Of a stretch of DNA of 64,000 bases, positions 2,601 through 51,727 are shown one piece after another (the first letter of the stretch is position 1; the number at the start of each line of letters is the position of its first letter). The translations under genes were made by a program, and so were the position numbers. Under the pieces are notes generated by a model. The model saw nothing but the letters and a program-made list of their open reading frames with translations. It was not told the DNA's origin and searched no databases. The stretch spans positions 16,337,809-16,401,808 of the forward strand of contig OX424559.1 of the NCBI GenBank assembly GCA_949152475.1. The letters run 5' to 3'. This stretch comes from Terebella lapidaria. Lineage: Eukaryota > Annelida > Polychaeta > Terebellida > Terebellidae.

Positions 2601-2603
2601 ATA

Positions 2604-3770: not shown

Positions 3771-3811
3771 TTCAAATCAAATTAGGAGCAAGTTTGAAAC
3801 CAATCTTTCAG

Positions 3812-17229: not shown

Positions 17230-17267
17230 GTAATGGTGTATTTTACACATGGAGTCAATCATTTTCA

Positions 17268-20000: not shown

Positions 20001-20153
20001 AATCTGGTGATATCCCGATGGTGTACACCAATTTCCGAGGTGGTGTCGGTATCAAATCTTACATCTTCTTGGACGCTGGTGACGACGGAAATTGGGATGC
20101 AAAGGAGACAGCATCGGGCAGATCGCCTTATTACATCTGCAAGAGATTGAAAA
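20001..20153 (+). CDS. C-type lectin receptor, exon 4: second part of CTLD2
   Basis: This 153-nt symmetric phase 1-1 exon follows a CAAACAG acceptor and ends before GTGAGT. It joins exon 3 in frame and encodes ESGDIPMVYTNFRGG, then SYIFLDAGDDGNWDAKE and SPYYICKRLK. The final Y-Y-I-C is the closing cysteine of the domain, and N-W-D-A-K sits where WND is expected. The penultimate cysteine of the family is absent, so the inner disulfide probably does not form. The exon leaves one base (A). The next exon in a compatible phase is at 26753, giving L-K-N-A-S, which is why I suspect a single gene continues there. Confidence 0.85.
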
Positions 20154-23109: not shown

Positions 23110-26100
23110 CATTTCATTTCATTCATTTCATAAGCACATAACTGATGGGAGTTTCATTGGACCAATACAGAGCTGCAATTGGTTCTTTCAAATGTAAGTG
23201 TTGTTTTGGCACAGATTGTGTTGATTTTTCCAAGTGTGATAGGTCATATGCACCGAACATTGAACTTGGCCTAGTTGGTAGTCCATTATTGTTGTTGTTC
23301 GTTTTAATAGTGCTATTCAAACTCCTGAGTTGGTTTGGTAACATTGAGCTGCACCCGGGTCCTAGAAACAACTCTGAAATCAACTCATGCAGTCACGTTT
23401 CCGGTGAATTGTCGCTATGTCATGTGCTGAGGGACTTCAACTTCTGAACTTTATAGATTCGTATGGCCTTTCTAAACATATTAACCAGCCGACTCGGGTA
23501 ACACAGACTGCTGCATCTGAACTAGACCAAATTATATCTAATTGTCCTCGGTTGATCAACAGAGTAAATGTACTTGATCCTTTTTCATATAACGACCATC
23601 ATACAGTCGCAGCCTGGGTGGAATTTCATGTGAAGAAAAGAACAACTTATACTAGAATGATATGGGACTATAGCAGTGGTGGTTATGTTGGGTTTCTCGA
23701 TAAGTTGAGTATCACAAACTGGGACGATTGTTTGAATACCAATGATATTAATGTAGCTGAACGAAGATGGACCGAATGTTTTTTATCTGCTGCTCGCGAA
23801 AACAAAGTGGTCCCCAACAAAGTGGTCACAATCAGGCCACACGATAAACCTTTCTATAATAATTATTTGCGTAGGTTAAAGCGATACAAGAATAGAGCAC
23901 ATAGAATAGCAAAATTAGACAATACAACAGAAGCCTGGCAGTTATTTCGTGAATGCCGAAATAAATATTTCTCGGCTATCAAGGAATACAAAGCAAAATA
24001 CGAGCAGAAGCTTTTGAACACCATCGCATCTAATGTTACAAAAAATCCCAATAAATGGTGGGGACTGACGAAAAACCTGTTAAATAAAACAAAGTATTCC
24101 TACATTGAAATATGGTGGAACTTATATTGATTGTGACGAGGAAAAAGCGCGCGCTTTCAACGAATATTTTGTTCAAGCTTCTATATTAGATTGTACAGGA
24201 GTATCATTACCTGATCACTATCTAGATCGCACTGATTCGTGTTTGAGCCTCTTACGATTTGATGAAGAGGATGTTGAAAAGGTTTTACTATCGTTAGACC
24301 CAAATAAATTAATTGGTCCTGATGGCATTAGTCCTCGTTTGTTAAAAGTCTCCGCGCCTGTAATCAAATCCAGTATTAGCGAACTTTTCAATATGTCAAT
24401 GTCCATGATGTCTGCTGGTCAATTTCCCAATAATTGGAAACTCGCGAACGTTACCCCTCTATTTAAGAAAGATGATAGAGCTATTATTTCTAATTATAGA
24501 CCGGTATCGCTGTTGAGCACGGTCGGCAAAGTAATGGAGCGCTTAGTTTTCAGATTCTTATACATTTATTTCAAGGAAAATTTCCTCATTTCCGTGTGGC
24601 AATCTGGTTTCACACCAGGTAGCTCAACTGTAACGCAGTTAATCGAGCTGTATCACGTATTTTGTGAGTCTCTAGATAAAAATAAGGAAGTCCGAGTTGT
24701 GTTCCTTGACATCTCTAAAGCGTTCGACAAAGTAGCCATGGCACGAAGGTTTATTATTTAAACTGAAGAAAAATGGGATTAAGGGTGAGTTACTTCATTG
24801 GCTTTCCGATTATCTACACACAATAGGAAGCAACGCGTCGTGATGAACGGAAAATCCTCTGATTGGTCCAATATATGTGCTGGGGTTCCTCAAGGCTCTG
24901 TCCTTGGGCCTTTGCTATTTTTAGTATTTATTGATGATATTTCTTTTGCTGTCAATCACTGCCGCATAAGATTATTTGCGGATGATACGTCATTATTTAT
25001 TGAAGTTGACGATGCAGCACACACAGCCCTGAAAATTAATGCCGATTTGTCATCAATCAATGATTGGTCCAAGAAATGGTTAGTCTCTTTTAATGCATCC
25101 AAATTCGAATCTTTGCTGATTTCCAACAAACGCACTTTAAGTCAACATCCCCCGGTCATTCTAGCCGATGAGGAAATCACAGAGGTGAAAAAGCACAAAC
25201 ATCTTGGGGTAACTCTTACAAGGGATTTATCTTGGTCTGCCCATATAAACGAAATATATGATAAAGCCAACAAACTTATTGCGCTTTTCAAATCCTTTAA
25301 ATTTCGACTCGACAGGAAATCATTAGAACTGTTTTACATGTCGATGATTCGACCTACGATAGAATATGCCGACGTTGTGTGGGCCGGCGCCACACAGTCC
25401 GATTTATCCAAACTCGACAGGCTACAAATAGAGGCTGCCAGAGTTGTGACCGGTGCAACCGCTCGCTGTAATACCTCAGCATTACTGAGTGATGTTAACT
25501 GGCTTACTCTCTCCGAACGACGGAGGAGACGTAGACTGTGTTTGTTTTATAAAATTATCAATGGTCTGAATCCACCTTATTTGTCAATTATTATGCCATC
25601 TACAGTCCGAGAGCGATCTTCGTATAATTTAAAATCAGCTGGTGATATCAGTTTAGGCAATGCTCGGCTGAGATGTTCAAGTACCTCATTTATCCACAAT
25701 ACCACCAGTGAATGGAATTTATTATCATCGGTGCAGAAAAATGCAGACTCCGTCAGCTCTTTTGAAGCACAACTCAAGCCACGAGACCCACAGTCAAATA
25801 ACCTATTTTATATGGGGCCACGCCATGCAAATATTATTTTATCCCGACTGAGGATACGGTGTAGCTTGTTAAATTATGATTTATGTATGAATTTACATGT
25901 CATTGACACAACGTCATGTCGCTGCGGCCATAATAAGGAAGATCTTTCTCATTTCTTGCTAAATTGTCCGTTATATAGTGATGCACGGCGTTCGCTGTTT
26001 GTCAACATCGGCGACACAATCACTGACCCTTACATTCTACTAAATGGATGTACTGGCCTTTCTTCTGATGCAAACTGTGCCATATTCAACGCAGTAATTC

Positions 26101-26360
26101 AATACATACTAGAAACCAATCGATTTCGATTCTTCCATTTTACATCGATTCATTCAGTTATAATCCACCCATCAATCATCCCATCCAATCATCTCAGTAT
26201 CTCATTATGTAAATAATTTAACGTAAATAATCTCGTATGTGATTCCTTTGTTTGTACAGTTTTTTTCTCTCTATGTTGTGTTGAAACCCATTAATATACG
26301 CTTTTGTGTGTTTGGAAATCGGAAAACAAAGTTTACACAAAAAAAAAGAACAAAAAAAAG
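23110..26360 (+). mobile_element. Non-LTR retrotransposon (CR1/Jockey-like LINE), internally deleted and frameshifted
   Basis: The plus strand starts near 23145 with MGVSLDQYRAAIGSF and NIELHPGP, the usual beginning of ORF2 in this group. Most of the endonuclease is missing: the frame jumps from HPGPR to the DFN motif near 23440. Frames then shift at about 24110 and again at about 24745. Reverse transcriptase motifs are clear: GPDGISPRLLK, NWKLANVTPLFKK, YRPVSLLSTVGK, VFLDISKAFD, AGVPQGSVLGPLLFL and RLFADDTSLF. A C-terminal C-x-C-x(6)-H-x(4)-C zinc-finger-like segment (near 25918-25970) follows. The 3' end near 26360 is A-rich. It lies in the sense orientation within the putative receptor gene, in the intron before 26753. 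Confidence 0.85.
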
Positions 26361-26752: not shown

Positions 26753-27003
26753 ATGCCTCGCAGCGAGTCCAGCGAGTGGGCAACTCACTGAAGCCGTCCA
26801 AAACTGGCGTAGACAACGACGGAGTGTCGTTCTTGCTTCACGACGCCGTGCTACAGGAAGGGGTGCTATTCGCGTTCTCCGCGTTCTTTCGCTACGAGAC
26901 CAAGGTGCGCTTCCAGGTGTGGCGACCTGAAGCCGAGGACAGGACCTTCACCTTGATAAAGGAGCTACCGGTCACGGCGACGGCGAGCTTCCAGCGGGAA
27001 GAT
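26753..27003 (+). CDS. Extracellular beta-rich domain, first exon
   Basis: A TTATCTAG acceptor and a GTGAGT donor bound 251 nt. GC content and codon use are clearly higher than the flanks. The translation includes RVGNSLKPSKTGVDNDGVSF, GVLFAFSAFFRYETKVRFQV, then W-R-P and FTLIKELPVTATASFQ. The alternating hydrophobic pattern and the F-Q-V-W-R-P signature recall an unnamed beta-sandwich module I associate with extracellular proteins of marine invertebrates. I cannot give it a Pfam name. The exon starts in phase 1, compatible with lectin exon 4 (20153), and ends in phase 0 for the next exon at 28115. Confidence 0.75.
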
Positions 27004-28114
27004 GTGAGTAATGTGATATGAACAGGTGAAATAATGGAGGAAAAATCACAGCACTGAGCCATCTATGAGGTCGCAAGAGTGAGATTGAAGAGAGTGGTTA
27101 TTTCATTCAGTTACTAGTTGTCTATATTATATGGGGTTATTGAATATGTGTTATTGAATAAAATATCTCAAATAAATACGACGTGGGAGAAAGCGTTGTC
27201 AAGTACTGTCACTTACACGTAGCCCCAACACAAGTAGCCCCTACCGGGTCTGCGCTCTATCTGGTTAGGACCACTCTTACCGTCGTCTATCCAGTATACA
27301 TTCTTTCAGCAAGGGGGTTTATTTGCGTGCTCGATGCATTCAGGAAACTCTTCTGAAGAATAACTTGTTTATGAGTTTGAGTTACATTGGTACAGACTTT
27401 TTTCTACGTGCTATTACTTCCTCAAAATCACGTCCCTGCATATACTCCCACTTTACATTCAATTTGGGCAAGACGTATTAATCTTTGCGAGAATATCTCG
27501 CACTTTCTGATGGAAACAATACGAATGCATCCACCAGAGCCTGAGCATTAACGCTTGCTGGCAGTGCTTGAGCGGGACTGTCGTTCATTAGGCTGTTTAT
27601 TAGCCTGAAACTGTCTTTGCAATCGGCGTTCAACAATTCTACGTGGAAAAAAATGTGCGTTGTACTGTTTGATTTTAAATTGAATTTTTCAGCGAAGATT
27701 TGCTTATGAATAAAAACAACTTTTTCCGTTGTGTTCAAGCTCTAGCTTCCTTCGCTCGACCACTGGCTGCATGTATTTCATCACAAGCCATGCTTTCATA
27801 TATGTCTGGCTCCCGACACTCAAGTATCTGGTGGGCTCCACCTAGTTAGTTACATATAATTTAATTGGCGCTCGCCAGATAAATATATTTTCACATGTCA
27901 CACTAACGGGTTCTGTCATTGGTACACTATATAGTTTAAATCTACAATAAATGTATATCAAATCATTTACCCATCAATGGCTTGATTGATTGCGTGATGA
28001 AGCCTTTGCAGAGGAAAATATAATATGGAAGCCTAACAGTTATATCAACATTGACATAATAATATCATTTTGTCAGTTACTATAATGAAATATACCATTG
28101 TCCGGTCGTTGCAG
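27004..28114. other. Intron, nothing recognisable
   Basis: This is AT-rich sequence without a known repeat. An open minus-strand frame at 27478-27738 shows no family signature. Confidence 0.5.
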
Positions 28115-28415
28115 ATTTATCTGGAGTCGAAGTCCGCTGACTGCGTGTTGGTGGATGTTGGTGACCGGGTTGGAGTCTACCTTGAGGAGTCCCCAGGCGC
28201 GATCGCGTACATCTTCGACAGGAATAACCCAACGTTCGCGCATACACTGGAGAACAAGAGCTTGCCGAACAGCGTTGGAGATGAGGTTGTCTTTGATCCG
28301 CTGACATTCCCGTATGATTTCACACTGGCAGCCTACGTCGACACGAACCTGACGGGAATCAACAAGAATATCACGAACCAGCCTTGTCCGAAGGGGCTCC
28401 TCATCCCGGAAAATA
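28115..28415 (+). CDS. Extracellular beta-rich domain, second exon
   Basis: This exon follows GTTGCAG in phase 0 and ends in phase 1 before GTAAGA. It continues the preceding exon: IYLESKSADCVLVDVGDRVG, then VYLEESPGAIAYIF, FDPLTFPYDFTLAAYVDTNL and NQPCPKGLLIPEN. The GDRVGVYL turn followed by AIAYIF matches the second half of the W-R-P module. Two N-glycosylation sequons, one N-L-T and one N-I-T, and two cysteines are visible. The base left over combines with the first stalk exon to give R-T-D. Together the two exons make one domain of about 180 residues. Confidence 0.8.
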
Positions 28416-29080
28416 GTAAGACTACTTCTCTGCCGGTCACCACAGTACCCTCACGTGAACTCCCCGAGTCCCCAAATTGTGTAAATTGTTGGGGAAACGA
28501 TGTCATAATATGGTCATTTGCAAGATTCTATCGGCACCTTCAATAATTCAATCATGGGCCCAGTGTGTGCTTAGAATTCAGCACAGAGTAACTATACACA
28601 GTCAGCTTCTGGGGCCTGCAGGGGTCGGGCGGGTGTCAGATCCCCCGCCAATGTGTGCTGTCGCTAGATTAGACATTTATATCATGGATTCCATTCAAAA
28701 CTGACCTTGTCTATCAAAACGTACTGATCAAATGTTATCATTGAGTCTTCATTCAGTGCATTGCAGCGGATTAAATATTATTTTCGATTCAAGTGCTGTG
28801 TATCAGTCATTGCTTCGGTATATATTCCCAATGACTGAAAACAATGACATACCTAAGTTGGGAAGGAATTTCGTGTAAACAGAGAACTCCATATGAATAT
28901 GTTTGGAATTAAATCATGTAATTCTCATATTAACAACGCGAAGTCATCAGAAATGTTAATATGCTTTCAAATTTGTATAAATTCACACAAAAATATGAAT
29001 TAGCATGCCTAATTTATATTATCAAATAATTTATCCGGACATTACATTTCATCATTAAACCATGTAGTATTGAATTACAG
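28416..29080. other. Intron, nothing recognisable
   Basis: Unique AT-rich sequence. Its right end (TTATCCGGACATTACATTTC onward) is shared with the introns preceding the other stalk exons. Confidence 0.5.
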
Positions 29081-29131
29081 GAACAGATGTAACAACCATC
29101 CCTGTGCCACTGATACCTTTGACAGAGACTG
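29081..29131 (+). CDS. Stalk exon 1 (51 nt, Thr/Pro-rich)
   Basis: AATTACAG acceptor, GTATGT donor, exactly 51 nt, phase 1-1. It encodes T-D-V-T-T-I-P-V-P-L-I-P-L-T-E-T. Because it is symmetric it can be skipped or multiplied without frameshift. The Thr/Pro content suggests an extended, possibly O-glycosylated membrane-proximal stalk. Confidence 0.8.
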
Positions 29132-29783
29132 GTATGTTTATTATCATTTATTTTACAATATACATGTTCATACAATAATTTGAGAATAGTAACGAATAAC
29201 AGTATTAGTAAGGTTCATTGGTGTAGCACTTTTTTTCTGACTGTGACGACCCAAAACCCTCTCCCGCACTGAATCACGCTTTTCGTATATACACACGGTC
29301 ACATCACCATCTATAAATTACTTCCCTCCTTGGGGGTGTTGGCCACTCTTCAGAATTACACGCCAAGCATGACACATAGTCCTATACAGTACAACCACGC
29401 CATGAACATGGAAACAATACCCAAGTATGAAGTGTCCGAGCAAACAAAACCGAGTCCATTATCATATCTCAAAGTCCGATGTCAGGCAAAATCTAGAAAA
29501 TGTTATTGAACTTCATGAACCCCCACATTTGGCCATTGTGGGGTGAAATCAGATGTCTAGAAAGAGTGAGCATGTCCTGTCCCACATGTGGCAGCCGTCA
29601 TGAATTCCAAACATGTTGCATATTAATGTAATGCTTGCTGCATACTGGTGACAGATTTTGTGTACATATCAACTAGATTGTGATAACATCCAGAGACTTT
29701 CTCGAAGCTGAGACTTTAGTTCTGAATTATGTATTGTGGTGTAGAGAGTGGAAAAGTCTAATGTTTTGATAGACGCCACTTTT

Positions 29784-32504
29784 GAGGTTACCGGACCTAT
29801 GGCCCAATAACCTTTTGGCATGGTGTTTTGTCCGTCGTCCATCATCTGTCGTCATCTTCGTCGTCCACATTTTTATCTGTTTTGTTTAAGGGCAATTTTT
29901 TTCTGAAATTTTGCACAAAAATGCCCAAAAATATTTCAAGAAGGAAGTTTTGTTTAGTTTTTTCGTTTTCACTATTATTTGAAAATGGCGACCGTTTTTG
30001 ATGAAAAATGGCCAATTTTGGACTTTGATGGCCGTTTTATCAAAATCTGGTCAGATTTTTTTCTCTTATTGATGCATAACACTCCTCATATATACCCTCT
30101 GTGATTTTTATCAGTTTCGCTGCCTTTGAATCAATCGAAGTGGGCCATTTTGGCCCAAACTCGGCCTAAATGGGACTTTCCCATGTTAAATTCACTTAAT
30201 ATTGAAATTAGAGACTAGGAATCTATTATGGACATATAGGAAATGATATATGCTGAATATTCTCGTGACCTTGAATACGACCTCTGACCTTATTTTCAAG
30301 GTCAGAGCACAAAATGGCTTATATCTCACTTATTATCGACATTTTAGCTTAGGGATAAATTGTGGACATATAGGAAATGATATATGCCGAATATTTTGAT
30401 GACCTTGAATTTGACCTTTGACCTCATTTTCAAGCTAGGTCGCAGAACAAAATGGCTAATATATCGCTTCTTATTGATTTTACAGCTTAGGAATCAATAT
30501 TGAACATATAGGAAATGACATATGCAGATTATTGTCATGACCTTGAATTTGACCTTTGACCTCATTTTCAAGGTCACAGGACAAAATGAGTAATATCTAA
30601 CTGATCAATTTTACAGCTTAGGAATCAACTGTAGACATAAAGGAAAGGATATATGCTGTACGTTCTCTTGACCTTGAATTTGACCTCTGACCTCATTTTC
30701 AAGGTCAAGAGCACAAAATGGCTAATATCTCCCTTGTTATCGACTTTACAGCTTAGGAATCAATTGTGGACATATAGGAAATGATATGTTCTGAATATTG
30801 TCATGACCTTGAATATGACCTTTGACCCAATGTTCAAAGTCACAGGACAAAATGGCTAATATCTTGCTTATTATCGACTTTACAGCTTAGCAATCAATTA
30901 TAAACATATAAACCCTTATCATGAACTTGAATTTGACCTTTGACCTAATTTTCAAGGTCACAGGACGAAATGACAAATATCACACTTATTATCGATTTTG
31001 CAGCTTTCAATCAATTCTGAACATATAGAAAATTATATATGCTGAATATTGCCATGACATTGAATTCGATCTTTGACCTCATTTTCAAGGACAAAATGGC
31101 TAATATCTTGCTTCCTCATTGACTTTATAGTTTGGGAACCAATTGTGGACATATAGAAAATGATTTACATTGAATATTTTGCTGACCTTGAATTTGACCT
31201 TGACCTTATTTTCGAGGTCAGAGCACAAAATGGCTAATAATTCACTTCTTATCAACTTTGCAGCTTAGGAATCCATAGTGAACATGTAGGAAATGATATA
31301 TGCTGAACATCGTCAACCTAAAGCAAATATGGCGTAACTCAGTGGGACATACTAAAGCAAAGCTTGACATATCCCTTATCTGCTCGTAGATCACTTCTGG
31401 TTGAATTCAACACCATTTAATAAGTAGAAGCCTATAACATAATGGCGCACCTCGTGGCTTGACTTACGCCATTTTGATCTTGAGTTATGCCAAAACTGTT
31501 CTAGTGTTTGTGATGAGTTATGCCCAAAACGTCACTAGTGTGTAATGACTTACGCCAAAAAAGCATTAGCTGATTAGTTACGCCATTTATGCTTTAGGAC
31601 CTTCGGGAGATACGCCAAAATTGCATTAGTGATTATGTCCAGTAGGTTTTCAACGAGAACATCTTTCGTATAAGTCATGGTAATCTTAGTTAATTAGCCA
31701 TTTACTTATAAATAAGAAGAACATTGATGGTAAGTGAAATACAGTGGTAAACTCCTTGAACATTCACGCCATAAGTCGTTCGGAAGCTTTCACTTAAAAT
31801 TTAAAGGCAAGAAACTTTTTAAACTGATTATCTCAAAACCACCGAAAATGACTTACGCCATTTTTGCTTTAGGGGCTCGATATTTTGGTGACCTTGAGTT
31901 CAACCTTTGACCTCATTTTCAAGGTCAGAGAACAAAATGGCTAATATCTCGCTTATTGTCGACTTTACAGCTTACGAATCAACCGTGAACAGAAAATGAT
32001 ATATGCTGAATATTCTCATGACCTTGAACTTGATTTTTGACCTCATTTTCAAAGTCAGATCACAAATGGCTAATATTTCACTTACTATCAATTTTACAGC
32101 TTAGGAATCAATTGTGGTCAAACTCCAAATGATATATGCCAAATATTCTCGTGACCTCGACTTGACCAATGACCTTATTTTCAAGTTTCCGTTGATCTGA
32201 TTTTCAAGGTGATAGGACAAAATGGTGTGGGAATCAATGATGGACATATAGGAAATGTTATACGCCAAATATTCTGATGACCTTGAATTTGACATTTGCC
32301 TTCATTTTCAAGGCCACGGGACGAAATTGCTAATATTTCTCTGATTATTGAATTTACAGCTTAGCAATCAACTGTGGACATGAAATATGCCTAATATTAT
32401 ATATGCTGAATATTCTCTTGACCTTGAATTTAACAACTGACCTGGCTAACATCTAAAATATTAACATATATTGTAACCTATCTTTGGCCCTTCGCCTAAT
32501 TTTT
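29784..32504 (+). mobile_element. Helitron-like minisatellite element (copy C)
   Basis: It begins GAGGTTACCGGACCTATGGC, has the AAAATGGCGACC and GTGGGCCATTTTGGCCC blocks, about sixteen 134-bp monomers, and a tail reading TAACCTATCTTTGGCCCTTC then GCCTAATTTTT. A 557-bp element (31317-31873) is inserted in the array. The flanks, CGCCACTTTT on the left and AAAGATTGTGAGCATG on the right, are joined directly in the third segmental copy near 39393. Confidence 0.7.
31317..31873. mobile_element. Inverted-repeat element (MITE) inside the minisatellite
   Basis: It begins CCTAAAGCAAATATGGCGTAA-like and ends with the inverse, TTACGCCATTTTTGCTTTAGG-like. Inside are several more GACTTACGCCA/GAGTTATGCC words. 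There is no coding capacity. It is duplicated with the segment at 35960-36402, where it has an internal deletion. Confidence 0.65.
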
Positions 32505-32539
32505 AAAGATTGTGAGCATGATCATATTCCAACGAAAAA

Positions 32540-33020
32540 TTTGATTTTTTTTAAATCCACATTTGGTTGATACCACTTCTATAGTCATGATAGTAGACCC
32601 TTTCACAGTATTTCTGGATAAATTGCTTAATCTTTGACAATATAACAGTTAGTACCTTAGAAAGACCTTTGGTGAAACATGATGTGGAGCCTGAAATATA
32701 CCTTTGTTTGTATGGATTTTTGTGTAACTTTGGAATAAACTGGGCAGTTTTCAATCTTCACAGGAAGCAGTGATACCAAAAGAATGCAATACAGGCATAT
32801 GATAAGATAATATATCCTGTTCAGAAATAGTAATATCCTGGTATGTACTGTTAGAATGTTTTTTACCAAGTTCATTTAATAGACACTGAATTAGCATGTT
32901 TTACAAACAAACACACCATTATTTGATGCTTGATCAGCAGGAACAATGACAAATTTTTCTCGGAGTTTCAACAAACTATCAGCAAGCATCGGATCATCAA
33001 AGAGAGAGATTGTAAATTGT
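32540..33020 (-). pseudogene. Reverse-transcriptase fragment, probably Penelope-like (copy 1)
   Basis: Minus-strand frames contain PKLHKNPYKQRYISGSTSC, then KGLSKVLTVILSKIKQF and YRSGINQMWI. Another frame has EKFVIVPADQASNN. This combination is typical of an invertebrate reverse-transcriptase family that I assign tentatively to Penelope-like elements. The fragment is incomplete and repeated at 37490-37980. A longer stretch lies at 39400-40140. Confidence 0.6.
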
Positions 33021-33083
33021 AATATCAAATAATTTATCCGGACCTTCCATTTCACCATTAAACCATGTGATTTTGAATTACAG

Positions 33084-33134
33084 AAACAGATGGAGCAACG
33101 ATTCCGGTGACGCTGATATCTTTGACAGAAACTG
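33084..33134 (+). CDS. Stalk exon 2 (51 nt, type b)
   Basis: 51 nt, phase 1-1, AATTACAG acceptor and GTATGT donor. It encodes (E)-T-D-G-A-T-I-P-V-T-L-I-S-L-T-E-T. It differs from type-a exons at several codons but has the same length and phase. Confidence 0.8.
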
Positions 33135-33727
33135 GTATGTTCAAACACTAAATTGGCAATAGTAACAGTAATAGTAATGATTTTGTGTAGCATTTTTTTT
33201 TTTACTGTAATGACCCAAAAACCCTCTCCCGCACTGATTCACACTTTTCATACATACACACGCTTACATCACCATTTATAAATTACTTCCCTCCTTGGGG
33301 GTGCTGTGCACTCCTCAGAATTAGGCGTCAAAGATGACAAATATTCCTACACAGTACAGCCAAGTCATAAACATGGAAACATCTAAATCATTCAATGTTT
33401 GTTTGTAATTGAATATTTTGGATATAATAGGCTTTGTATATGAGTAAGAAACCGACGGAGTACCATTATCAGTAAAGTATGACAAACCTAGTGTGGTCGA
33501 AGTTGGGAAGGAATGTCATGTAAACAAAGAACGCCATATGGAGATGTTTTTGAAATTATATCATGAAATGCTTAAATTAACAACGGAATGTCATCAGAAA
33601 TTTTATTATGCTTCCAAATTTGTAAAAATTCACACAAAAGTATGAATTAACATACCTAAATTGTGATATCAAATAATTTATCCGGACCTTACATTTCACC
33701 AATAAACCAGGTGGTATTGAATTACAG

Positions 33728-33778
33728 GAACAGATGGAACAACCATCCCGGTGCCACTGATACCTTTGACAGAGACTG
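33728..33778 (+). CDS. Stalk exon 3 (51 nt, type a)
   Basis: 51 nt, phase 1-1, encoding (G)-T-D-G-T-T-I-P-V-P-L-I-P-L-T-E-T, with the same splice sites as exon 1. It is the first exon of the second segmental unit. Confidence 0.8.
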
Positions 33779-35959
33779 GTATGTTTATCATCATTTATAT
33801 TACAATATACGTGTTCATACAATAGATTGAGAATAATAACGAATAACAGTAACAATAAGGCTTATTGGTGTAGCATTTTTTCTGACTGTAATGACCCAAA
33901 AACCCTCTCTCGCACTGAATCACACTTTCCATACATACACAAGCTTACATCACCATTTATAAATTACTTCCCTCCTTGGGGGTGCTGTGCACTCCTCAGA
34001 ATTAGGCGTCAAAGATGACACATAGTCCTACACAGTACAGTCACGCCATAAACATGAATCAATACCCAAGTATAAAGTATCCGAGCAAACAAAATCGAGT
34101 TCATTATCCATCTCAAAGTCCATTGTCAGGCAAAATCTAGAAAATGTTATGGAACTTCATGAACCCCCACATTTGGCCATTGTGGGGTGAAATCAGATGT
34201 CTAGAAAGAGTGAGCATGTCCTGTCCCACATGTGGCAGCCGTCATGAATTCCAAACATGTTGCATATTAATGTAATGCTTGCTGCATACTGGTGACAGAT
34301 TTTGTGTACATATCAACTAGATTGTGATAACATCCATAGACTTTCTCGAAGCTGAGACTTTAGTTCTGAATTATGTATTGTGGTGTAGAGAGTGGAAAAG
34401 TCTAATGTTTTGATAGACGCCACTTTTGAGGTTACCGGACCTATGGCCCAATAACCTTTTGGCATGGTGTTTTGTCCGTCGTCCATCATCTGTCGTCATC
34501 TTCGTCGTCCACATTTTTATCTGTTTTGTTTAAGGGCAATTTTTTCTGAAATTTTGCACAAAAATGCCTGAAAATATTTCAAGAAGGAAGTTTTGTTTAG
34601 TTTTTTCGTTTTCACTATTATTTCAAAATGGCGACCGTTTTTGATGAAAAATGGCCAATTTTGGACTTTGATGGCCGTTTTATCAGAATCTGGTCAGATT
34701 TTTTTCTCTTATTGATGCATAACACTCCTCATATATACCCTCTGTGATTTTTATCAGTTTCGCTGCCTTTGAATCGCTCGAAGTGGGCCATTTTGGCCCA
34801 AACTCGGCCTAAATGGGACTTTCCCATGTTAAATTCACTTAATATTGAAATTAGAGACTAGGAATCTATTATGGACATATAGGAAATGATATATGCTGAA
34901 TATTCTCGTGACCTTGAATACGACCTCTTACCTCATTTTCAAGGTCAGAGCACAAAATGGCTTATATCTCACTTATTATCGACATTTTAGCTTAGGGATA
35001 AATTGTGGACATATAGGGAATGATATATGCCGAATATTCTGATGACCTTGAATTTGACCTTTGACCTCATTTTCAAGCTAGGTCGCAGAACAAAATGGCT
35101 AATATATCGCTTCTCATTGATTTTACAGCTTAGGAATCAATAATGAACATATAGGAAATGACATATGCAGATTATTGTCATGACCTTGAATTTGACCTTT
35201 GACCTCATTTTCAAGGTCACAGGACAAAATGGGTAATATCTAACTTATCAATTTTACAGCTTAGGAATCAACTGTAGACATAAAGGAAAGGATATATGCT
35301 GTACGTTCTCTTGACCTTGAATTTGACCTCTGACCTCATTTTCAAGGTCAAGAGCACAAAATGGCTAATATCTCCCTTGTTATCGACTTTACAGCTTAGG
35401 AATCAATTGTGGACATATAGGAAATGATATGTTCTGAATATTGTCATGACCTTGAATATGACCTTTGACCCAATGTTCAAAGTCACAGGACAAAATGGCT
35501 AATATCTTGCTTATTATCGACTTTACAGCTTAGCAATCGATTATAAACATATAAACCCTTATCATGAACTTGAATTTGACCTTTCATCTAATTTTCAAGG
35601 TCACAGGACGAAATGACAAATATCACACTTATTATCGATTTTGCAGCTTGGAATCAATTCTGAACATATAGAAAATTATATATGCTGAATATTGCCATGA
35701 CCTTGAATTCGATCTTTGACCTCATTTTCAAGGACAAAATGGCTAATATCTTGCTTCCTCATTGACTTTATAGTTTGGGAACCAATTGTGGACATATAGA
35801 AAATGATTTACATTGAATATTTTGCTGACCTTGAATTTGACCTTGACCTTATTTTCAAGGTCAGAGCACAAAATGGCTAATAATTCACTTCTTATCAACT
35901 TTGCAGCTTAGGAATCCATAGTGAACATATAGGAAATGATATATGCTGAACATCGTCAA

Positions 35960-36402
35960 CCTAAAGCAAATATGGCGTAACTCAGTGGGACATACTAAAG
36001 CAAAGCTTGACATGTCCCCTATCTGCTCGTAGATCACTTCTGGTTGAATTCAACACCATTTAATAAGTAGAAGCCTATAACATAATGGCGCACCTCGTGG
36101 CTTGACTTACGCCATTTTGATCTTGAGTTATGCCAAAACTGTTCTAGTGTTTGTGATGAGTTATGCCCAAAACGTCACTAGTGTGTAATGACTTACGCCA
36201 AAAAAGCATTAGCTGATGAGTTACGCCATTTATGCTTTAGGACCTTCGGTCTTAGAACATTGATGGTAAGTGAAATACAGTGGTAAACTCCTTGAACATT
36301 CACGCCATAAATCGTTCGGAAGCTTTCACTTAAAATTTAAAGGCAAGAAACTTTTTAAACTGATTATCTCAAAACCACCGAAAATGACTTTTTTGCTTTA
36401 GG
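35960..36402. mobile_element. Inverted-repeat element, second copy (internally deleted)
   Basis: Duplicate of 31317-31873 carried by the segmental duplication. About 100 bp are missing after 36248, and the right terminal word GCTTTAGGGGCTCGATAT is duplicated. Confidence 0.6.
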
Positions 36403-36960
36403 GGCTCGATATTTGCTTTAGGGGCTCGATATTTTGGTGACCTTGAGTTCGACCTTTGACCTCATTTTCAAGGTCAGAGAACAAAATGGCTAATATCTCG
36501 CTTATTGTCGACTTTACAGCTTACGAATCAACCGTGAACAGAAAATGATATATGCTGAATATTCTCATGACCTTGAACTTGATTTTTGACCTTATTTTCA
36601 AAGTCAGATCACAAATGGCTAATATTTCACTTACTATCAATTTTACAGCTTAGGAATCAATTGTGGTCAAACTCCAAATGATATATGCCAAATATTCTCG
36701 TGACCTCGACTTGACCAATGACCTTATTTTCAAGTTTCCGTTGATCTGATTTTCAAGGTGATAGGACAAAATGGTGTGGGAATCAATGATGGACATATAG
36801 GAAATGTTATACGCCAAATATTCTGATGATTTTGAATTTGACATTTGCCCTCATTTTCAAGGCGACGGGACGAAATTGCTAATATTTCTCTGATTATTGA
36901 ATTTACAGCTTAGCAATCAACTGTGGACATGAAATATGCCTAATATTATATATGCTGAAT

Positions 36961-37366
36961 AGAATAGAATAGAATAATGTTTATTCAGCAATCTCTGAAA
37001 GGGATGCATAATATACAGTAACAATACACCAAAAAATAAACGAATCTAATAATATACTCTGTTTTGATACATAGGTTAAATTCAGAGAAATGCTGAGAGA
37101 CACATACAAAGCCTAGGGGCTGTATTACGTATGGCCTCAACTAATAATTGAAGGAAAATACGACAATTTTAAGACATAGACTACTAACAAATTGAAATTA
37201 AGCTGAACAAAAAAAAAATGTACAAATACCCTTGCACTGTGGATGAAAGAGTGAAATCGGGACTTGGCGAAAGACAACATATTTATGAATAATGATAATG
37301 AGTATGTTAGATGAGATGGGTTGGTATGAAATCTGACACTGGAGCGAAAGACGAAATATTTATCAG
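36961..37366 (-). mobile_element. 5'-truncated LINE insertion with 8-bp target duplication
   Basis: On the minus strand this ends ATAAACATTATTCTATTCT and a short ATTCT repeat tail, as LINE 3' ends do. TGCTGAAT is present on both sides (36953-36960 and 37367-37374). The corresponding place in the first segmental unit (near 32410) is empty, so the insertion happened after the duplication. Confidence 0.8.
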
Positions 37367-37489
37367 TGCTGAATATTCTCTTGACCTTGAATTTAACAAC
37401 TGACCTGGCTAACATCTAAAATATTAACATATATTGTAACCTACCTTTGGCCCTTCGCCTAATTTTTAAAGATTGTGAGCATGATCATA

Positions 37490-37980
37490 TTCCAACGAAA
37501 AATTTGATTTTTTTAATATCCACATTTGGTTGATACCACTTCTATAGTAGACACTTTCACAGTATTTCTGGATAAATTGCTTAATCTTTGACAATATAAC
37601 AGTTAGTACCTTGGAAAGACCTTTGGTGAAACATGATGTGGAGCCTGAAATATACCTTTGTATGGATTTTTGTGTAACTTTGGAATAAACTGGGCAGTTT
37701 TCAATCTTCACAGGAAGCAGTGATACCAAAAGAATGCAATACAGGCATATGATAAGATAATATATCCTGTTCAGAAATAGTAATATCCTGGTATGTACTG
37801 TTAGAATGTTTTTTACCTAGTTCATTTAATAGACACTGAATTAGCATGCTTTACAAACAAACACACCATTATTTGATGCTTGATCAGCAGGAACAATGAC
37901 AAATTTTTCTCGGAGTTTCAACAAACTATCAGCAAGCATCGGATCATCAAAGAGAGATTGTAAATTGTAATATCAAATAA
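37490..37980 (-). pseudogene. Reverse-transcriptase fragment, probably Penelope-like (copy 2)
   Basis: Segmental duplicate of 32540-33020, with the same QRYISGSTSCFTKGLSKVLT stretch. Incomplete. Confidence 0.6.
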
Positions 37981-38031
37981 TTTATCCGGACCTTCCATTT
38001 CACCATTAAACCATGTGATTTTGAATTACAG

Positions 38032-38082
38032 AAACAGATGGAGCAACGATTCCGGTGACGCTGATACCTTTGACAGAAACTG
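38032..38082 (+). CDS. Stalk exon 4 (51 nt, type b)
   Basis: 51 nt, phase 1-1, encoding (E)-T-D-G-A-T-I-P-V-T-L-I-P-L-T-E-T. It has one replacement relative to exon 2 (S to P). Confidence 0.8.
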
Positions 38083-38679
38083 GTATGTTCAAACACTAAA
38101 TTGGCAATAGTAACGAGTAACAGTAATAGTGATGATTTTGTGTAGCTTTTTTTTTTTACTGTAATGACCCAAAAACCCTCTCCCGCACTGATTCACACTT
38201 TCCATACATACACACGCTTAATTCACCATTTATAAATTACTTCCCTCCTTGGGGGTGCTGTGCACTCCTCAGAATTAGGCGTCAAAGATGACAAATAGTC
38301 CTACACAGAACAGCCAAGTCATAAACATGGAAACATCTAAATCATTCAATGTTTGTTTGTAATTGAATATTTTGGATATAATAGGCTTTGTATATGAGTA
38401 AGAAACCGACGGAGTACCATTATCAGTAAAGTATGACAAACCTAGTGTGGTCGAAGTTGGGAAGGAATGTCATGTAAACAAAGAACTCCATATGAACATG
38501 TTTGGAATTATATCATGAAATGCTTATATTAACAACGGAATGTCATCAGAAATTTTATTATGCTTCCAAATTTGTAAAAACTCACACAAAAATATGAATT
38601 AACATACCTAAATTGTGATATCAAATAATTTATCCGGACCTTACATTTCACCAATAAACCATGTGGTATTGAATTACAG

Positions 38680-38730
38680 GAACAGATGGAACAACCATCT
38701 CGGTGCCACTGATACCTTTGACAGAGACTG
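38680..38730 (+). CDS. Stalk exon 5 (51 nt, type a)
   Basis: 51 nt, phase 1-1, encoding (G)-T-D-G-T-T-I-S-V-P-L-I-P-L-T-E-T. The donor and acceptor are intact. It starts a third, shorter segmental unit of 1.8 kb that lacks the Helitron-like element. Confidence 0.8.
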
Positions 38731-39399
38731 GTATGTTTATCATCATTTATATTACAATATACGTGTTCATACAATAGATTGAGAATAATAACGAATAACA
38801 GTAACAATAAGGCTTATTGGTGTAGCATTTTTTCTGACTGTAATGACCCAAAAACCCTCTCTCGCACTGAATCACACTTTCCATACATACACAAGCTTAC
38901 ATCACCATTTATAAATTACGTCCCTCCTTGGGGGTGCTGTGCACTCCTCAAAATTAGGCGTCAAAGATGACACATAGTCCTACACAGTACAGTCACGCCA
39001 TAAACATGAATCAATACCCAAGTATAAAGTATCCGAGCAAACAAAACCGAGTTCATTATCCAATCTCAAAGTCCATTGTCAGGCAAAATCTAGAAGATTT
39101 TATAGAACTTCATAACCCCCATATATGGCCATAGTTTGGTGAAATCAGGTGTCTGGAAAGAGTGAGCATTTCTTGCTCCACATGTGGCATCCGTCATGAA
39201 TTCCAAAATATCAACATGCAATCAGATGCATGTTATTGTAATGCTTGCTGCATACTGATGACAGATTTTGTGTACATATCAACTCGATTGTGATGACGTC
39301 CATAGAATTTATTGAAGTTGAGAATTTAGTTGTGAATGATGTATTGTGGTATAGAGGGTGGAAATGTCAAATGTTTCGATAGAGGTCACTTTTCAAAGA

Positions 39400-40140
39400 G
39401 TGTGAGCATGTACATATTCCAACAAAATAGTATCCACATTTGGTTGATACCACAGTTTCACAGTATTCCTGGAGACCGTGCTTAATCTTTGACAATATAG
39501 CAGTTAGTACCTTAGAAAGCCCTTTGATAAACATGATGCCGAGCCTGAAATTTACCTTTGTTTGTATGGATTTTTGTGTAACTTTGTGATCCAGTATAAA
39601 CTAGGCAGTTTATAATCTTCACAGGAAGCAGTGATACCAAAAGAATGCAATACAGGCATATGATTAGATAATATATCATGTTCAGATATAGTAATATTCT
39701 GGTATGTATTGTTAGAATGGTTCTTACCAAGTTCATTAAATAGGCACTGAATATAGTATGCTCTACAAACAAAGACAACATTATTGGATGCTTGATCAGC
39801 AGGAACAATGACAAATTTTTCTCGGAATTTCAACAAACTATCAGCAACAAATAAATCATCAAAGAGAGTCCATATTTAGTACTGACTGCCTTCCACAAAA
39901 AAGGAATGCGTCTAGCTACCAATGACCTAATTTGTTTAACCCATTCTGACAGAGAATAAGTTCCTGCCTTTGCTCGCTTTGTCCACTTTCTGGCATGTTC
40001 CTCAACTGCATCCATGATTAACTTGAAATTGTATCGCCATGAAAATGCATTCGGCTCCCAATATTTGGGACCTTCGGACAATATATGTTTCAACCATTCA
40101 TTGTCTCCTAAATCGAGGTATATTGAAATAATATGCACTA
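39400..40140 (-). pseudogene. Reverse-transcriptase fragment, probably Penelope-like (copy 3, longest)
   Basis: The minus strand reads, in separate frames, WLKHILSEGPKYWEPNAFSW, LSEWVKQIRSLVARRI, EKFVIVPADQASNNVVFV and YKLPSLYWITKLHKNPYKQR. These are the N-terminal and early polymerase parts of the same family as 32540-33020. The fragment is incomplete at both ends and no longer functional. Confidence 0.65.
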
Positions 40141-40482
40141 CTGGTTTCTGTTTGATTGGAGAACTAGTGCAAGTACAGGAGTCTGGGTTTGTAATAGGTC
40201 ATCAATTTGTAAATCATTCAATGTTTGTTTGTACTAGAATATCTTGGATGCAAAAGGCTTTGTATATGAGTAGGAAACCAACGGAGTACCATTATCAGTA
40301 AAGTATGACATACCTAGTGTGGTCGAAGTTATGAAGGAATTTCATGTTAACAAAGAACTCCATATGAATATGTTTGGAATTGAATCATGAAATGCTTATA
40401 TCAACAACAGAATGTCATCAGAAATTTTATTATGCTTTCAAATTTGTTTAAATTCACACAACCATGTGGTATTGAAATACAG

Positions 40483-40533
40483 GAACAGATGGAACAACCA
40501 TCCCGGTGCCACTGATACCTTTGACAGAGACTG
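40483..40533 (+). CDS. Stalk exon 6 (51 nt, type a)
   Basis: 51 nt, phase 1-1, same encoded peptide as exon 3. The acceptor is AAATACAG and the donor GTATGT. It is followed at the usual distance by another Helitron-like element (41192). Confidence 0.8.
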
Positions 40534-41191
40534 GTATGTTTATGATCATTTAATTTACAATATACATGTTCATACAATAAATTGAGAATAGTAACGAATA
40601 ACAGTAATAGTAAGGTTTATTGGTGTAGCACTTTTTTTTCTGACTGTGACGACCCAAAACCCTGTCCCGCACTGAATCACGCTTTTCGTATATACACACG
40701 GTCACATCACCATCTATAAATTACTTCCCTCCTTGGGGGTGTTGGCCACTCTTCAGAATTACACGCCAAGCATGACACATAGTCCTAAACAGTACAGCCA
40801 CGCCATGAACATGGAAACAATACCCAAGTATGAAGTATCAGAGCAAACAAAACCGAGTCCATTATCATATCTCAAAGTCTGATGTCAGGCAAAATTTAGA
40901 AAATTTCATGGAACTTCATGAACCCCATATATGGCAATAGTGGGGTGAAATCAGATGTCCAGAAAGAGTGAGCATTTCCTACCCCACATGTGACAGCCGT
41001 CATGAATTCAAAAACATGTTGCATGTTAATGTAATGCTAGCTGCATACTGGTGTCTGATTTTGTGTACTTGATACATCAACTAGATTGTGATAACGTCCA
41101 TAGACATTCTCGAAGCTGAGGCTTTAGTTCTGACTTATGTATCATGGTGTAGAGAGTGGAAAAGTCGAATGTTTCGATAGACGTCACTTTT

Positions 41192-43880
41192 TAGGTTACC
41201 GGACCTATGGTCCGATAACCTATCGGCATGGTGTTGCATCTGTCGTGTGTCGTTTGTCATCGTCGTCCACATTTTTATCTTTTTTGTTTGAGGGCATTCT
41301 TTTTAAATTTTGCACAAAAATGTCTGAAAATATTTTAAGAGTAGTTTTGTTTAGATTTTTATATTTTCGCTGTTATTTCAAATGGCGGCCATTTTTGATG
41401 ACAAGTGGCCAATTTTGGACTTTAATGGCCTTTTTCTCAAAAACTGTTCAGAAATGTTTTTTCTTATTGATGCAGAACACTCCTCATATACACCCCTGTA
41501 ATTTTTATCAGTTTCGTTGCCCTTGAATTGTTCGAAGTGGGCCATTTTGGTCCAGACTCCCATGTTAAATTCTCCTGTGCTTTATAGTGGGACACATGAT
41601 GCCTAATATTTCACTTAATATTGAAATTAGAGACTAGGAATCAATTGTGGACATATAGGATATGATATATGCTGAATATTCTCGTGACCTTGAATTTGAC
41701 CTCTGACCTAAGTTTCAAGGTCAGAGCACGCAACGGCTTATATCTCACTCATCATCCACATTATATCTTAGGGATAAATTGTGGACATATAGGATATGAT
41801 ATATGCCTAATATTCTGATGACCTTGAATTGGACCTTTGACCTCGTTTTCAAGGTCACAGGAGAAAATGGCTCGCTACTTAACAAAGTTAAAAAGAAACT
41901 AGTTAGCGAATTATTTGTCATAACCAAAGTAAAGAAAATAATAAAAACAAACAAATCTAGTTGCTCTATATTATACACTTGTATATCCATACTTAACTTA
42001 CGGCATTACTTTAGGGGGGGGGGGGCAGCCTACAATACGCATATCCAAAAATTAGTAATCATGCAGAAAATAATTATAAGAGTCATTTCGAATACATCTT
42101 ACAATACACACACCAGTGCGTTATTTATAAAATTAAAACTTCCAGAACTCGTGGACATATATGAATTTGTATGTCTGTAAATATGTTCTGTCATTATTCA
42201 ACCATTCTCTGCGGGTACGTTAAACAACCTATTTATCTTGAATCGCTCGAAGTGGGCCATTTTGGGCCCAAATTCGGCCCAAATAGGACTTTCCCATGTT
42301 AAATTCTCCTATCCTCATAATGGGACACATTAAGCCTGATATCTCACTTAATATTGAGATTGGAGACTAGGAATCAATTGTGGACATATAGGAAATGATA
42401 TATGCTGAATATTCTTGTGACCTTGAATTTGACCTCTGACCTCTGTTTCAAAGTCAGAGCGGCCATTTTCGTCGAAACAATGGCCAATTTTGGACTTTGA
42501 ATGCTGCTCAGTAACTTTTTTTTATTGATACATAACACTCCTCACATGTATCCCTGTGACATGTATAAATTTCGTTGCCCTTAAATCGCTCGAAGTATGC
42601 CATTTTGGGCCCAAACTCGGCCCAAATGGGACTTTCCCATGGTCAATTTTCCTATGGTTTATAATGGGACACATTAAGCCTTATATCTGACTTGATATTG
42701 AGATTAGAGACTAGGAATCAATTGTGGACATATAGGAAATGATATATGCCGAATATTCTGATGACCTTGAATTTGACCTTTAACCTCATTTTCAAGGTCA
42801 CAGGACAAAATGGCTGATATATCACTTATTATCGATTTTATAGCTTAGGGATCAATTGTGAACGTATAGGAAATGATAAATGCTGATTATTCTCGTGACC
42901 ATGAATTTGACCTCTGACATCGGTTTTAAGGTCACAGCACAAAATGTCTAATATCTCGCTTATTATCGACTTTACAGCTTAGTAATCAATTGTGGACATA
43001 TAAGAAATGATATATGCCGATCATTCTGATGACCTTGAATTTGACCTTTGACCCCATTTCAAGGTCACATGACGAAATGGCTAATATCTCACTTATCGAT
43101 TTTATAGCTTTGGGATCAATTGTGAACATATAGGAAATGATATATGCTGAATATTCTCGTTACTTTGAATTTGATCTCTGATCTCAGTTCAAAGGTCAGA
43201 TCACAAAATGGCTTTTACCTCGCTTATTATTGACTTTAAAGCTTATGAATCAATTGTGGACATATAGGAAATGATATATGCCGAATGTTCTGATGACCTT
43301 GGATTGACCATTGACCTTATTTTCAAGGTCACGGGACAAAATGGCTAATATCTCAGTTTTAATCGACTTTACAGTTTAGGATCCAATTATGAACATATAG
43401 GAAATGATATATGCAGATTATTGTCAAGACCTTGAATTTTACCTTTGACCATGTTGACCTCATTTTCAAAGTCACAGGACAAAATGGCTAATATCTCATT
43501 TGTTATCGATTTTACAGCTGAGGGAGCAATTGTGGACTCATAGGAAATGACATAATATTATGCTGAATATTCTCGTGAGCTTGAATTTGACCTCCGACCT
43601 CACTTTCAAGGTCAAGAGCACAAAATGGCTAATATCTCGCGTGTTATCGACTTTACAGCTCAGGAATCAATTGTGGACATTTAGGAAGTGATATACGCCG
43701 AATATTTTGATGACCTTGAATTTGACCTCCGACCTCACTTTCAAGGTCAAGAGCACAAAATGGCTAATATCTCGCATATTATCGACTTTACAGCTTAGGA
43801 ATCAATTAACATATAGGAAATGATATATGAAGATTATTGCCATGACCTTTAATTTGACCTTCGACTATGTTTTGAAGACC
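41192..43880 (+). mobile_element. Helitron-like minisatellite element (copy E, 3' truncated)
   Basis: It starts TTAGGTTACCGGACCTATGG after ACGTCACTTT, the same site used by copies C and D. It is interrupted by a LINE fragment (41873-42235), has a rearranged second block of AAATGGCC/GGGCCCAAACTCGGCCC, and about twelve monomers. The characteristic tail is missing. Confidence 0.65.
41873..42235 (+). pseudogene. LINE reverse-transcriptase C-terminal fragment inside copy E
   Basis: The frame gives GGAAYNTHIQKLVIMQKIII, then R-V-I-S-N-T-S-Y-N-T-H-T and ALFIKLKLPELVDIY. This is the post-polymerase segment of a LINE. A run of 12 G (42014-42025) interrupts it. It is 5' and 3' truncated. Confidence 0.65.
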
Positions 43881-44702
43881 ACAGGAATCAATATGAAATG
43901 TGAATTTCACGTTATTTATCATATTATATTGAGTCTGAACGATGATCATTTTGTCAGCGGGTGGAAGATGAATGTATGAATCTATAAAATTGTGTATTCA
44001 CTACTACTTGTCAGTACATGTACTGTGGTTATTATTGTTATTGTTGAATAAATTGCAAAAAAAAAACCTGGCACGAGTACCTCTGCATCCGTAACTGCCG
44101 AATCGAACCATGTCTCAGTCACAGAAATGATGTGGGCACCGGTCTTCTCCGATATTAGAGCAAGTTCAGACACTTTATGTCGTAGGGAGCGAGCGTTAAC
44201 ATCGAGTATGTGAAGTCCTTTTCGTTTGAAGCATTCGTAGCTGTCATCATCATGTAAATGGGTGTTGGTGGTGGCAGATGGGCTCAGTGGAACTTGCCCA
44301 TCCTCTGATCCGTCGTCAGAGTCAGGGTCGGTTGTGGGGCCGAGGGGCAGTTCTGTCAAATGGCAGTGGCAGCAGCGGTAATGGCAACCCTTCGACCATC
44401 CTGGTGTAGGCTGCAACAGGAATTTATTAGCACAAATGATCAGCACATATGATTTATACATTTATACATTTATACACATTTATTAGCACAGATGCTATAA
44501 TGATGGTGATGTTGGATCAGAAATATCGATATCATATTGTAATTAAGTATATGGATTATAGTTCAAATGATACTGAATCTCAACTTCCTGCCTATATATT
44601 TCTTTGACTACACAGTGTATCAGAAAGACATACATCTATGGAATTTCTTGTGGTTAATACATTCTACTCCTAGTAATTTTGTCACTTTTTGTCTGATTAC
44701 AG
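43881..44702. other. Intron with a LINE endonuclease fragment
   Basis: Apart from the fragment at 44062-44461, this part of the intron before the linker exon is AT-rich and unremarkable. The right end (from about 44590) is duplicated at 56300. Confidence 0.5.
44062..44461 (-). pseudogene. LINE endonuclease N-terminal fragment
   Basis: The minus-strand frame contains LHILDVNARSLRHKVSELAL, then ISEKTGAHIISVTETWFD. This is the start of the endonuclease domain of a CR1/Jockey-like ORF2 (the N-x-R-S-L and E-T-W motifs). It is preceded by a Cys/His-rich stretch and stops abruptly at an A-run near 44060. Confidence 0.7.
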
Positions 44703-44753
44703 AACCAATGATGGAATTCACTAGTAGCACAGAGTCACGTGAACCAGAACCAA
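44703..44753 (+). CDS. Linker exon (51 nt) before the transmembrane exon
   Basis: GATTACAG acceptor, GTAAGA donor, 51 nt, phase 1-1. It encodes (E)-P-M-M-E-F-T-S-S-T-E-S-R-E-P-E-P. It has the same length and phase as the stalk exons, so it probably belongs to the same duplicated-exon series. Its acidic Ser/Thr/Pro composition suits a membrane-proximal linker. It has a close paralogue at 56413-56463. Confidence 0.75.
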
Positions 44754-45228: not shown

Positions 45229-45307
45229 AGTTCGTCGTGGCGATCGCTGTAGTTGTGGCAGTGGTGGCAATTGTTGTAACAGCTGCATTGACCTTTGTCT
45301 TAACAAG
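45229..45307 (+). CDS. Transmembrane exon of the mosaic receptor
   Basis: This 79-nt exon after TTTACAG enters in phase 1 and leaves in phase 2. It encodes K-F-V-V-A-I-A-V-V-V-A-V-V-A-I-V-V-T-A-A, then L-T-F-V-L-T-R. This is a single strongly hydrophobic helix of about 24 residues closed by arginine. The phase pattern is identical to that of the transmembrane exon at 1833-1905. The 5.6-kb intron that follows is full of foldback elements. Confidence 0.85.
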
Positions 45308-50961: not shown

Positions 50962-51727
50962 GCACAAATGTCCGGGATCCGCTGCCGAAACGCCAGATAC
51001 CGTTGACTTTCCGAGGACAGGAAGTGGATTTGTATTAGTGTATGATAATGAAACTGTGTCTCTGCGAACCACAGAACCTGGGATGCAAGACGGAACAGTC
51101 ATTGAATATGAACAGGTTCTCCAGACCAGAAATGGAAACATAATTGCTTCTCGGATACAAAACAGTGCACATTATCAGGAAGTACAACTGCAAAATGTTC
51201 CCGAGGTACTTGACGTCACTACTCATGAACAAAACTTGACAACAACGAATGATGTGGTGGCAGGGAATGCAACAGCAGCTGAGAATGGACATGAACACAT
51301 AACTGAATCTGGGATACAAATAAGTGCGGATTACCGGAAAGTGCAACTGCACAATGGGTCTGAGGATCTCGACACCACTTCTCCTAAAGAACACTTGACA
51401 ACAATGAACGATGTGGTGACAGAGAATGCAACAGCAACTGAGAGTGGATATGAACACATGACTGGATCTGGAATACAAAGTAGTGCACATTATCAAGGAG
51501 CAACACTGTACATTGGGTGTGAAGATCTTGACACCACTACTCCTAAACAACACTTGACGACAACGGGTGATGAGAGGGTGGAGAATGTAACAGCAGCTGG
51601 TAGTATGGGGGAGGAGCACGGAACAGCCCATGACGCTCGTCAGTACGAGCCTTTGATTCAGGACAGAAGCCAGAGAGACGACAGGAATGCTGACAGGATC
51701 AACGCATATGAACCACTGCAAGTGTGA
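50962..51727 (+). CDS. Cytoplasmic tail, terminal exon of the mosaic receptor
   Basis: A GTCATAG acceptor follows. The first base completes the AG left by 45307 to give R-H-K-C. About 255 residues end in N-A-Y-E-P-L-Q-V-stop. Three tandem repeats of 53 residues (starting near 51147, 51306 and 51465) share SGIQxSAxY, then LTTxNDVV and NATA. The first tyrosine motif, VIEYEQVL, fits the ITIM consensus. Each repeat carries one related tyrosine (HYQEVQL, DYRKVQL, HYQGATL), and two more sit at the end (QYEPLI, AYEPLQV). Tyrosines of this type usually recruit SH2-domain phosphatases or adaptors, so an inhibitory or endocytic role is inferred. A long minus-strand open frame over the exon is a shadow. 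Confidence 0.85.

Follow-up and report, generated by a model that had tools for sequence, protein, structure and literature searches.

How does a gene acquire a row of small homologous exons, and what would such a row encode? We addressed this question for a 64,000-nucleotide (nt) stretch of the genome of the annelid Terebella lapidaria (contig OX424559.1, here C5, positions 16,337,809 to 16,401,808 of the forward strand; the genome comprises 762 Mb in 438 contigs). This stretch, hereafter called the window, carries six homologous 51-nt exons between its positions 29081 and 40533. On the sequence evidence, we consider it quite probable that this array encodes the stalk of a chimeric membrane receptor and that it grew by tandem steps, the last of which was an unequal exchange between introns. 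The exchange point is the strongest part of the analysis, and the use of the exons in the cell is the weakest.

Six homologous stalk exons

The six exons, all on the plus strand, are designated b1 (29081-29131), a1 (33084-33134), b2 (33728-33778), a2 (38032-38082), b3 (38680-38730), and b4 (40483-40533). As described in a first-pass annotation of this DNA, each is 51 nt long and lies between phase 1 introns (phase 1-1). All six are preceded by AG and followed by GT and are open in a gene model that keeps the frame. The same annotation had proposed an alternation of the two sequence types, a and b, which is not strictly borne out: along the array the types run b a b a b b. When the window was scanned on both strands, without gaps, for at least 30 of 51 matches to the b2 exon, these six exons and no others were recovered. 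All six matches from a genome search with a b exon and its downstream intron were located in the array, in a search that was not exhaustive and did not list a1. The likeness of the six exons is beyond chance because their flanking introns are homologous as well. Thus, the array has the properties of tandemly duplicated exons, i.e., adjacent homologous exons, homologous introns, and a preserved frame.

When translated with a G placed before each exon, the array encodes the peptides GTDVTTIPVPLIPLTET (b1), ETDGATIPVTLISLTET (a1), GTDGTTIPVPLIPLTET (b2 and b4), ETDGATIPVTLIPLTET (a2), and GTDGTTISVPLIPLTET (b3); exon 6 of the gene model ends in A, so that the first repeat starts with R (arginine) in the modeled protein. 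A seventh small exon (44703-44753, plus strand; EPMMEFTSSTESREPEP), also 51 nt long, phase 1-1, and in frame in the model, is unlike the six in sequence and precedes the membrane-segment exon. Since both ends of every stalk unit are in phase 1, the gain, loss, or skipping of an exon would alter the stalk length only, in line with the frame neutrality proposed at first pass. The description of the stalk as mucin-like is only moderately apt: threonine, serine, and proline account for 46 of the 102 residues of the six repeats, but the repeats also contain many isoleucines, leucines, valines, and glutamates.

Unequal exchange within 19 bases

The last step in the growth of the array can be recognized in the alignments as an unequal exchange that involved the introns downstream of b1 and of the next b exon, within an interval of 19 bases (34124-34142, matching 29480-29498 and 39077-39095). 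We infer an exchange because the diagnostic sites and the sequence identity both switch at one point in the b2 intron. Upstream of this point (34005-34123), all 16 listed diagnostic sites are b3-like, and downstream of it (34143-34445) the sites are b1-like, with a single exception at 34337. By our count, four sites before the switch and two beyond it depart from this pattern in the whole b2 intron comparison; past ~34450 the b3 side is mostly unaligned, and those columns are uninformative for the b1/b3 switch. The first two units are 66-89% identical in alignment segments ahead of the switch (~89% in the last three 200-column segments) and 96.8-100% identical in the segments past it.

The two products of the exchange (29499-34123 and 34143-39076) differ by 64 substitutions in 4,499 sites (Kimura two-parameter distance, 0.0144) and by 12 gaps. 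The largest gap corresponds to a 414-base insertion (36962-37375) that is found in the second copy only and has TGCTGAATA at both edges. Because TGCTGAATA stands only once in the other copy, the insertion would either postdate the duplication or be polymorphic. These results support the earlier proposal of a recent tandem segmental duplication, in which a 4.6-kb block with one a exon and one b exon was doubled, and the exchange would have taken the array from four to six exons. The near-identity claimed for all of the units holds for one pair past the crossover, but not for its initial 0.8 kb (66-89%) or for the b3-b4 interval, which differs.

A divergence of 64 in 4,499 sites and an insertion in one copy would also fit two alleles of an outbred invertebrate, and the doubled block could then be an assembly artifact, with two haplotypes (~1.4% apart, with one insertion) joined in tandem and a true gene with four such exons. 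This explanation appears very unlikely to us, as the junction falls at a paralogous position of two ~90% alike introns with a clean 19-base switch, whereas a haplotype join need not break there; moreover, the genome search mentioned above, within its limits, did not reveal a second copy of the array elsewhere.

Probable earlier steps in array growth

The interval between b3 and b4 (1.8 kb) points to older events that preceded the exchange. It has no a exon and aligns with the first unit in homologous blocks of 83-89% identity (38454-39393 versus 28855-29783, 86%; 39390-39868 versus 32500-33006, 83%; and 40210-40461 versus 33384-33637, 89%), and a 2.7-kb repeat-bearing stretch of the first unit (29784-32499) is absent from it. 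In place of positions 39869-40209 (341 bases) of the b3-b4 interval, the first unit has a block that contains exon a1 and its splice sites (33007-33383, plus strand), and this a block is ~80% like the b block (38609-39008 versus 33013-33375). The 341-base filling continues an antisense relic that we read as a reverse-transcriptase element, perhaps Penelope-like; two pieces of the relic had no Pfam match at E values of up to 0.01.

An earlier tandem step would have produced b-type units that are ~12-13% apart. Type a probably arose when a block of ~0.37 kb, bearing one exon and both of its splice sites, displaced part of an older intron that contained the relic. The loss of an a exon from the b3-b4 interval was considered first; we prefer a replacement by the a block because the reading through the antisense reverse-transcriptase-like relic continues, with a shift of frame, across that interval. 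A replacement in the opposite direction is possible. Over the 300 bases that follow b1 and b4, these two sequences differ at only 8 of 299 sites, but further downstream they are 76-93% identical.

A repeated element that starts near AGGTTACCGGACCTATGG and contains inner 134-bp tandem repeats is located at ~17449-19600, 29784-32499, 34434-37440, and 41175-43900; its bounds were set by eye and its tandem repeats were detected computationally. The b3 intron does not contain this element.

A lectin-like receptor model

The modeled receptor consists of 878 amino acids encoded by 15 exons (14883-51727, plus strand) without an inner stop. In this model, the receptor has two C-type lectin domains, a domain unmatched in databases, the stalk, a membrane segment, and a tyrosine-bearing tail, which agrees with the earlier view that the 51-nt exons encode the stalk of a membrane receptor. 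Exon 1 (14883-15207) includes the start codon, a hydrophobic leader recognized by eye, and the first half of lectin domain 1, and exon 2 (15470-15595; phase 1-1) provides its second half. Lectin domain 2 is encoded by exon 3 (16990-17268; phase 1-1) and ends in exon 4 (20001-20153; phase 1-1), both of which were placed by the in-frame model and by a lectin-domain search. Pfam Lectin_C matched in two stretches (E value, 6.9e-9; 36.8 bits versus a cut-off of 22.6) and was the sole Pfam match of the model at E values of up to 0.1. The calcium- and sugar-binding motifs of C-type lectins are EPN or QPD together with WND. None of these three motifs is present in the 878-residue model, and we therefore call the receptor lectin-like without claiming classical sugar binding.

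Exons 5 (26753-27003; phase 1-0) and 6 (28115-28415; phase 0-1) encode the first and second parts of the unmatched domain. With these two exons taken as one unit, phase 1 introns bound every unit, starting with exon 2 and ending with the seventh small exon; phase 1 is common for animal extracellular modules. Downstream of the stalk, the exon at 45229-45307 (phase 1-2, in frame in the model) encodes a hydrophobic stretch, recognized by eye only, that is a putative membrane anchor. The last exon (50962-51727) encodes the cytoplasmic tail, in which one of nine tyrosines fits the pattern [ILVS]xYxx[LVI] (IEYEQV) and a 159-nt tandem repeat of 2.7 copies (51138-51565) runs in frame.

Two further features lie within or next to this gene. 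Reverse-transcriptase frames at 24084-26216, with matches to Pfam RVT_1 in two frames, lie in the intron that separates exon 4 from exon 5. Past the stop codon, a decayed copy of the 3' end of the gene (56304-57094) includes, at 56413-56463, a sequence related to the seventh 51-nt exon, as well as pieces of the tail; between these, there is no match to the membrane exon.

Proposed chimeric origin of the receptor

The unmatched domain (26753-28415) was found at five loci, i.e., the window gene, C5:16.71-16.72 Mb, C15:18.005 Mb, C15:18.010 Mb, and C12:16.83 Mb, in genome searches with two members that may miss remoter ones. None of the five members had a Pfam match at E values of up to 5, and a profile of the five matched no PDB chain at E values of up to 10. 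At all four other loci, one open frame leads from the end of the domain through repeats of the collagen type and a hydrophobic segment that resembles a membrane anchor. The nearest paralog, on the opposite strand at a distance of ~0.34 Mb, has a protein identity of 79-87% (87% for exon 5 against C5:16719284-16719538). Its DNA likeness to the window gene ends ~25 bases upstream of exon 5. At the other side, the coding sequence of the paralog aligns for 53 bases beyond the exon 6 donor, so that the donor falls within what is coding sequence in the paralog, to which the start of intron 6 (28416-28468) is homologous; the window reads AATA/GTAAGA at this donor, and the paralog has GC where the window has GT. 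The ratios of nonsynonymous to synonymous substitution rates relative to this paralog are 0.11 for exon 6 (99 codons) and 0.37 for exon 5 (83 codons), and the domain thus looks constrained.

Relatives of the lectin domains, among 53 matches, include those at C5:16.319 Mb, C5:16.324 Mb, C3:17.52 Mb, and C5:15.43 Mb. At E values of up to 0.001, with the best candidates scored, we found no lectin match beside the four collagen-stalked genes and no unmatched-domain match beside the lectin paralogs. As the four other genes with the domain carry collagen-type stalks and have no adjoining lectin match, the window gene looks like a shuffled chimera of lectin exons and exons of a collagen-stalked receptor, with the collagen part lost. 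Lectin exons of a small family would have been joined to two exons of such a receptor, and a new donor site would have cut off the collagen part, with the small-exon stalk in its place. The stalk would be extended and rich in threonine, would be lengthened by 17 residues with each 51-nt exon, and would keep the lectin and unmatched domains at a distance from the membrane. It is possible, if doubtful, that this chimeric receptor with a swapped stalk type is young and that its exon-wise stalk is still expanding, with receptor length differing within the population.

At the upstream edge of the window, the stretch at 1838-4151 contains the end of another gene, with an exon-like stretch of hydrophobic character (GTIVSIVVGVICVVLTALITAFITR) and a tail rich in tyrosine. 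This may perhaps be the end of the lectin paralog that starts near C5:16323668.

Stalk exon integrity and use

Several considerations weigh against the account of the array as the stalk of a single receptor built by the steps described above. Its splice junctions are predictions from sequence, with sites picked by eye, for consensus and frame. A distance of 6.6 kb, which includes a reverse-transcriptase element, separates exon 4 from exon 5, and for this reason exons 5 and 6 and the stalk could be part of a separate gene or isoform. The direction assigned to the a-block replacement depends on our reading of a relic that Pfam does not recognize, and it is uncertain in which order the early duplications occurred, because other exchanges have blurred the history, as the uneven likeness downstream of b1 and b4 illustrates. 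The earlier statement that all splice sites are kept is correct in that AG and GT are present in all six copies, but as evidence for selection it is weak: in a neutral simulation (20,000 runs; approximate tree set by hand), all six copies were open with AG and GT in 20% of runs, and the summed exon differences were at or below the observed 76 in 12% of runs (P = 0.12). Exon and flank divergences were compared for 4 of the 15 pairs without correction and with the upstream flank of b4 left out of the counts. The b2-b4 pair gave the only pronounced contrast (0/51 in the exon versus 35/296 in the intron; Fisher P = 0.0045, uncorrected), which is weak as one of four tested pairs, the other three having P values of 0.10 to 0.64 (b1-b2, 2/51 versus 56/447, P = 0.10; b2-a2, 7/51 versus 73/403, P = 0.56; and b1-b4, 2/51 versus 8/299, P = 0.64). 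Constraint on the stalk exons is thus suggested at most.

The frequency of intact arrays in the neutral runs would also be compatible with 51-nt exons that are passengers without a role, intact through youth and rarely or never included in transcripts. The acceptors of the b exons are pyrimidine-poor (5-6 pyrimidines among 13 positions, versus 7 in the a exons and 9 in the seventh exon), and b4 has lost ~69 bases of its upstream intron relative to b3, from 22 bases before the acceptor end; either feature could weaken exon use and would suit such passengers. We nevertheless regard this explanation as unlikely, as the frame and the AG and GT sites are kept in every copy and b2 is identical to b4 in the exon, though their introns differ at 35 of 296 sites. 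The presence of two sequence classes, with all units in phase 1-1, would be consistent with an alternative or graded splicing of the a and b types that tunes the stalk, as opposed to the inclusion of all exons, a possibility that we consider improbable.

Relation to known stalks and stalk relatives

The window gene resembles L-SIGN (CLEC4M) and DC-SIGN in having a C-type lectin receptor stalk built of repeats. In PMC11122574, the neck repeats of L-SIGN are described as 69-nt units within exon 4 that vary in number between people (5, 6, 7, and 9 repeats). On that description, the L-SIGN repeats lie inside one exon and differ in number between individuals, whereas in the window gene, known from one genome, each 51-nt repeat is an exon of its own, with long introns and repeats that differ in sequence. 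The closest comparison within the same genome is with the collagen-stalked paralogs, which share the unmatched domain and the hydrophobic membrane-like segment and have a stalk of another type.

The growth of the array is the same in kind as other tandem exon duplications by intronic unequal exchange, in that copies carry their introns, keep the frame, and are in phase 1. It stands out only in that the exchange point is confined to 19 bases and that one copy seemingly moved as a short block. As read from its sequence, the array is ordinary in kind and well resolved in detail: a single gene would display older tandem copies, a short block that seemingly brought an exon into a neighboring intron, and a recent intronic exchange at near base resolution, together with a change of stalk type between close paralogs. 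If the copy number varies in the species, the array would represent an invertebrate parallel, in exon-sized steps, to the length variation of lectin necks. The domain of exons 5 and 6, without a Pfam or PDB match, merits attention of its own.

Comparable stalk exons were sought near two other lectin genes. Open AG-51-GT candidates numbered 22 in the upstream gene region (16327801-16337800 plus window positions 1-5000) and 8 in a 10-kb stretch of C3 (plus strand), and none was alike, with best scores of 6 and -4 versus 72-83 for the six true copies. A composition filter was a poor detector, catching three of the seven known exons (a1, a2, and the seventh) in its looser form and none in its stricter form, so that these lectin genes may still have stalk exons of other lengths. 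A literature search judged by titles found no stalk exon arrays, which is not proof of their absence from print. One of the exons also had no match among plasmids, which is uninformative here. Stalk matches at C11:293-302 kb were rejected, as they belong to a satellite (C11:293001-303000) with a 51-bp period and 177 copies that reads in several frames, some with stops; in our view, the shared period of 51 is a coincidence.

Other features of the window and assembly

Near the end of the window, the minus strand carries a 768-amino-acid open frame (59922-62228) in a stretch of high G+C content (0.573 at 60001-62000), with Pfam matches only below the curated cut-offs. The mitochondrial contig (C438; 15,973 bases) has TGA within the cox1 frame, and TGA is thus not a stop codon in it. 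Its long frames, all on one strand, read nad4L, nad4, nad1, nad3, nad2, cox1, cox2, cox3, nad6, cob, atp6, and nad5, the names other than cox1 being our reading of the frames. This order presumably matches the usual annelid gene order.

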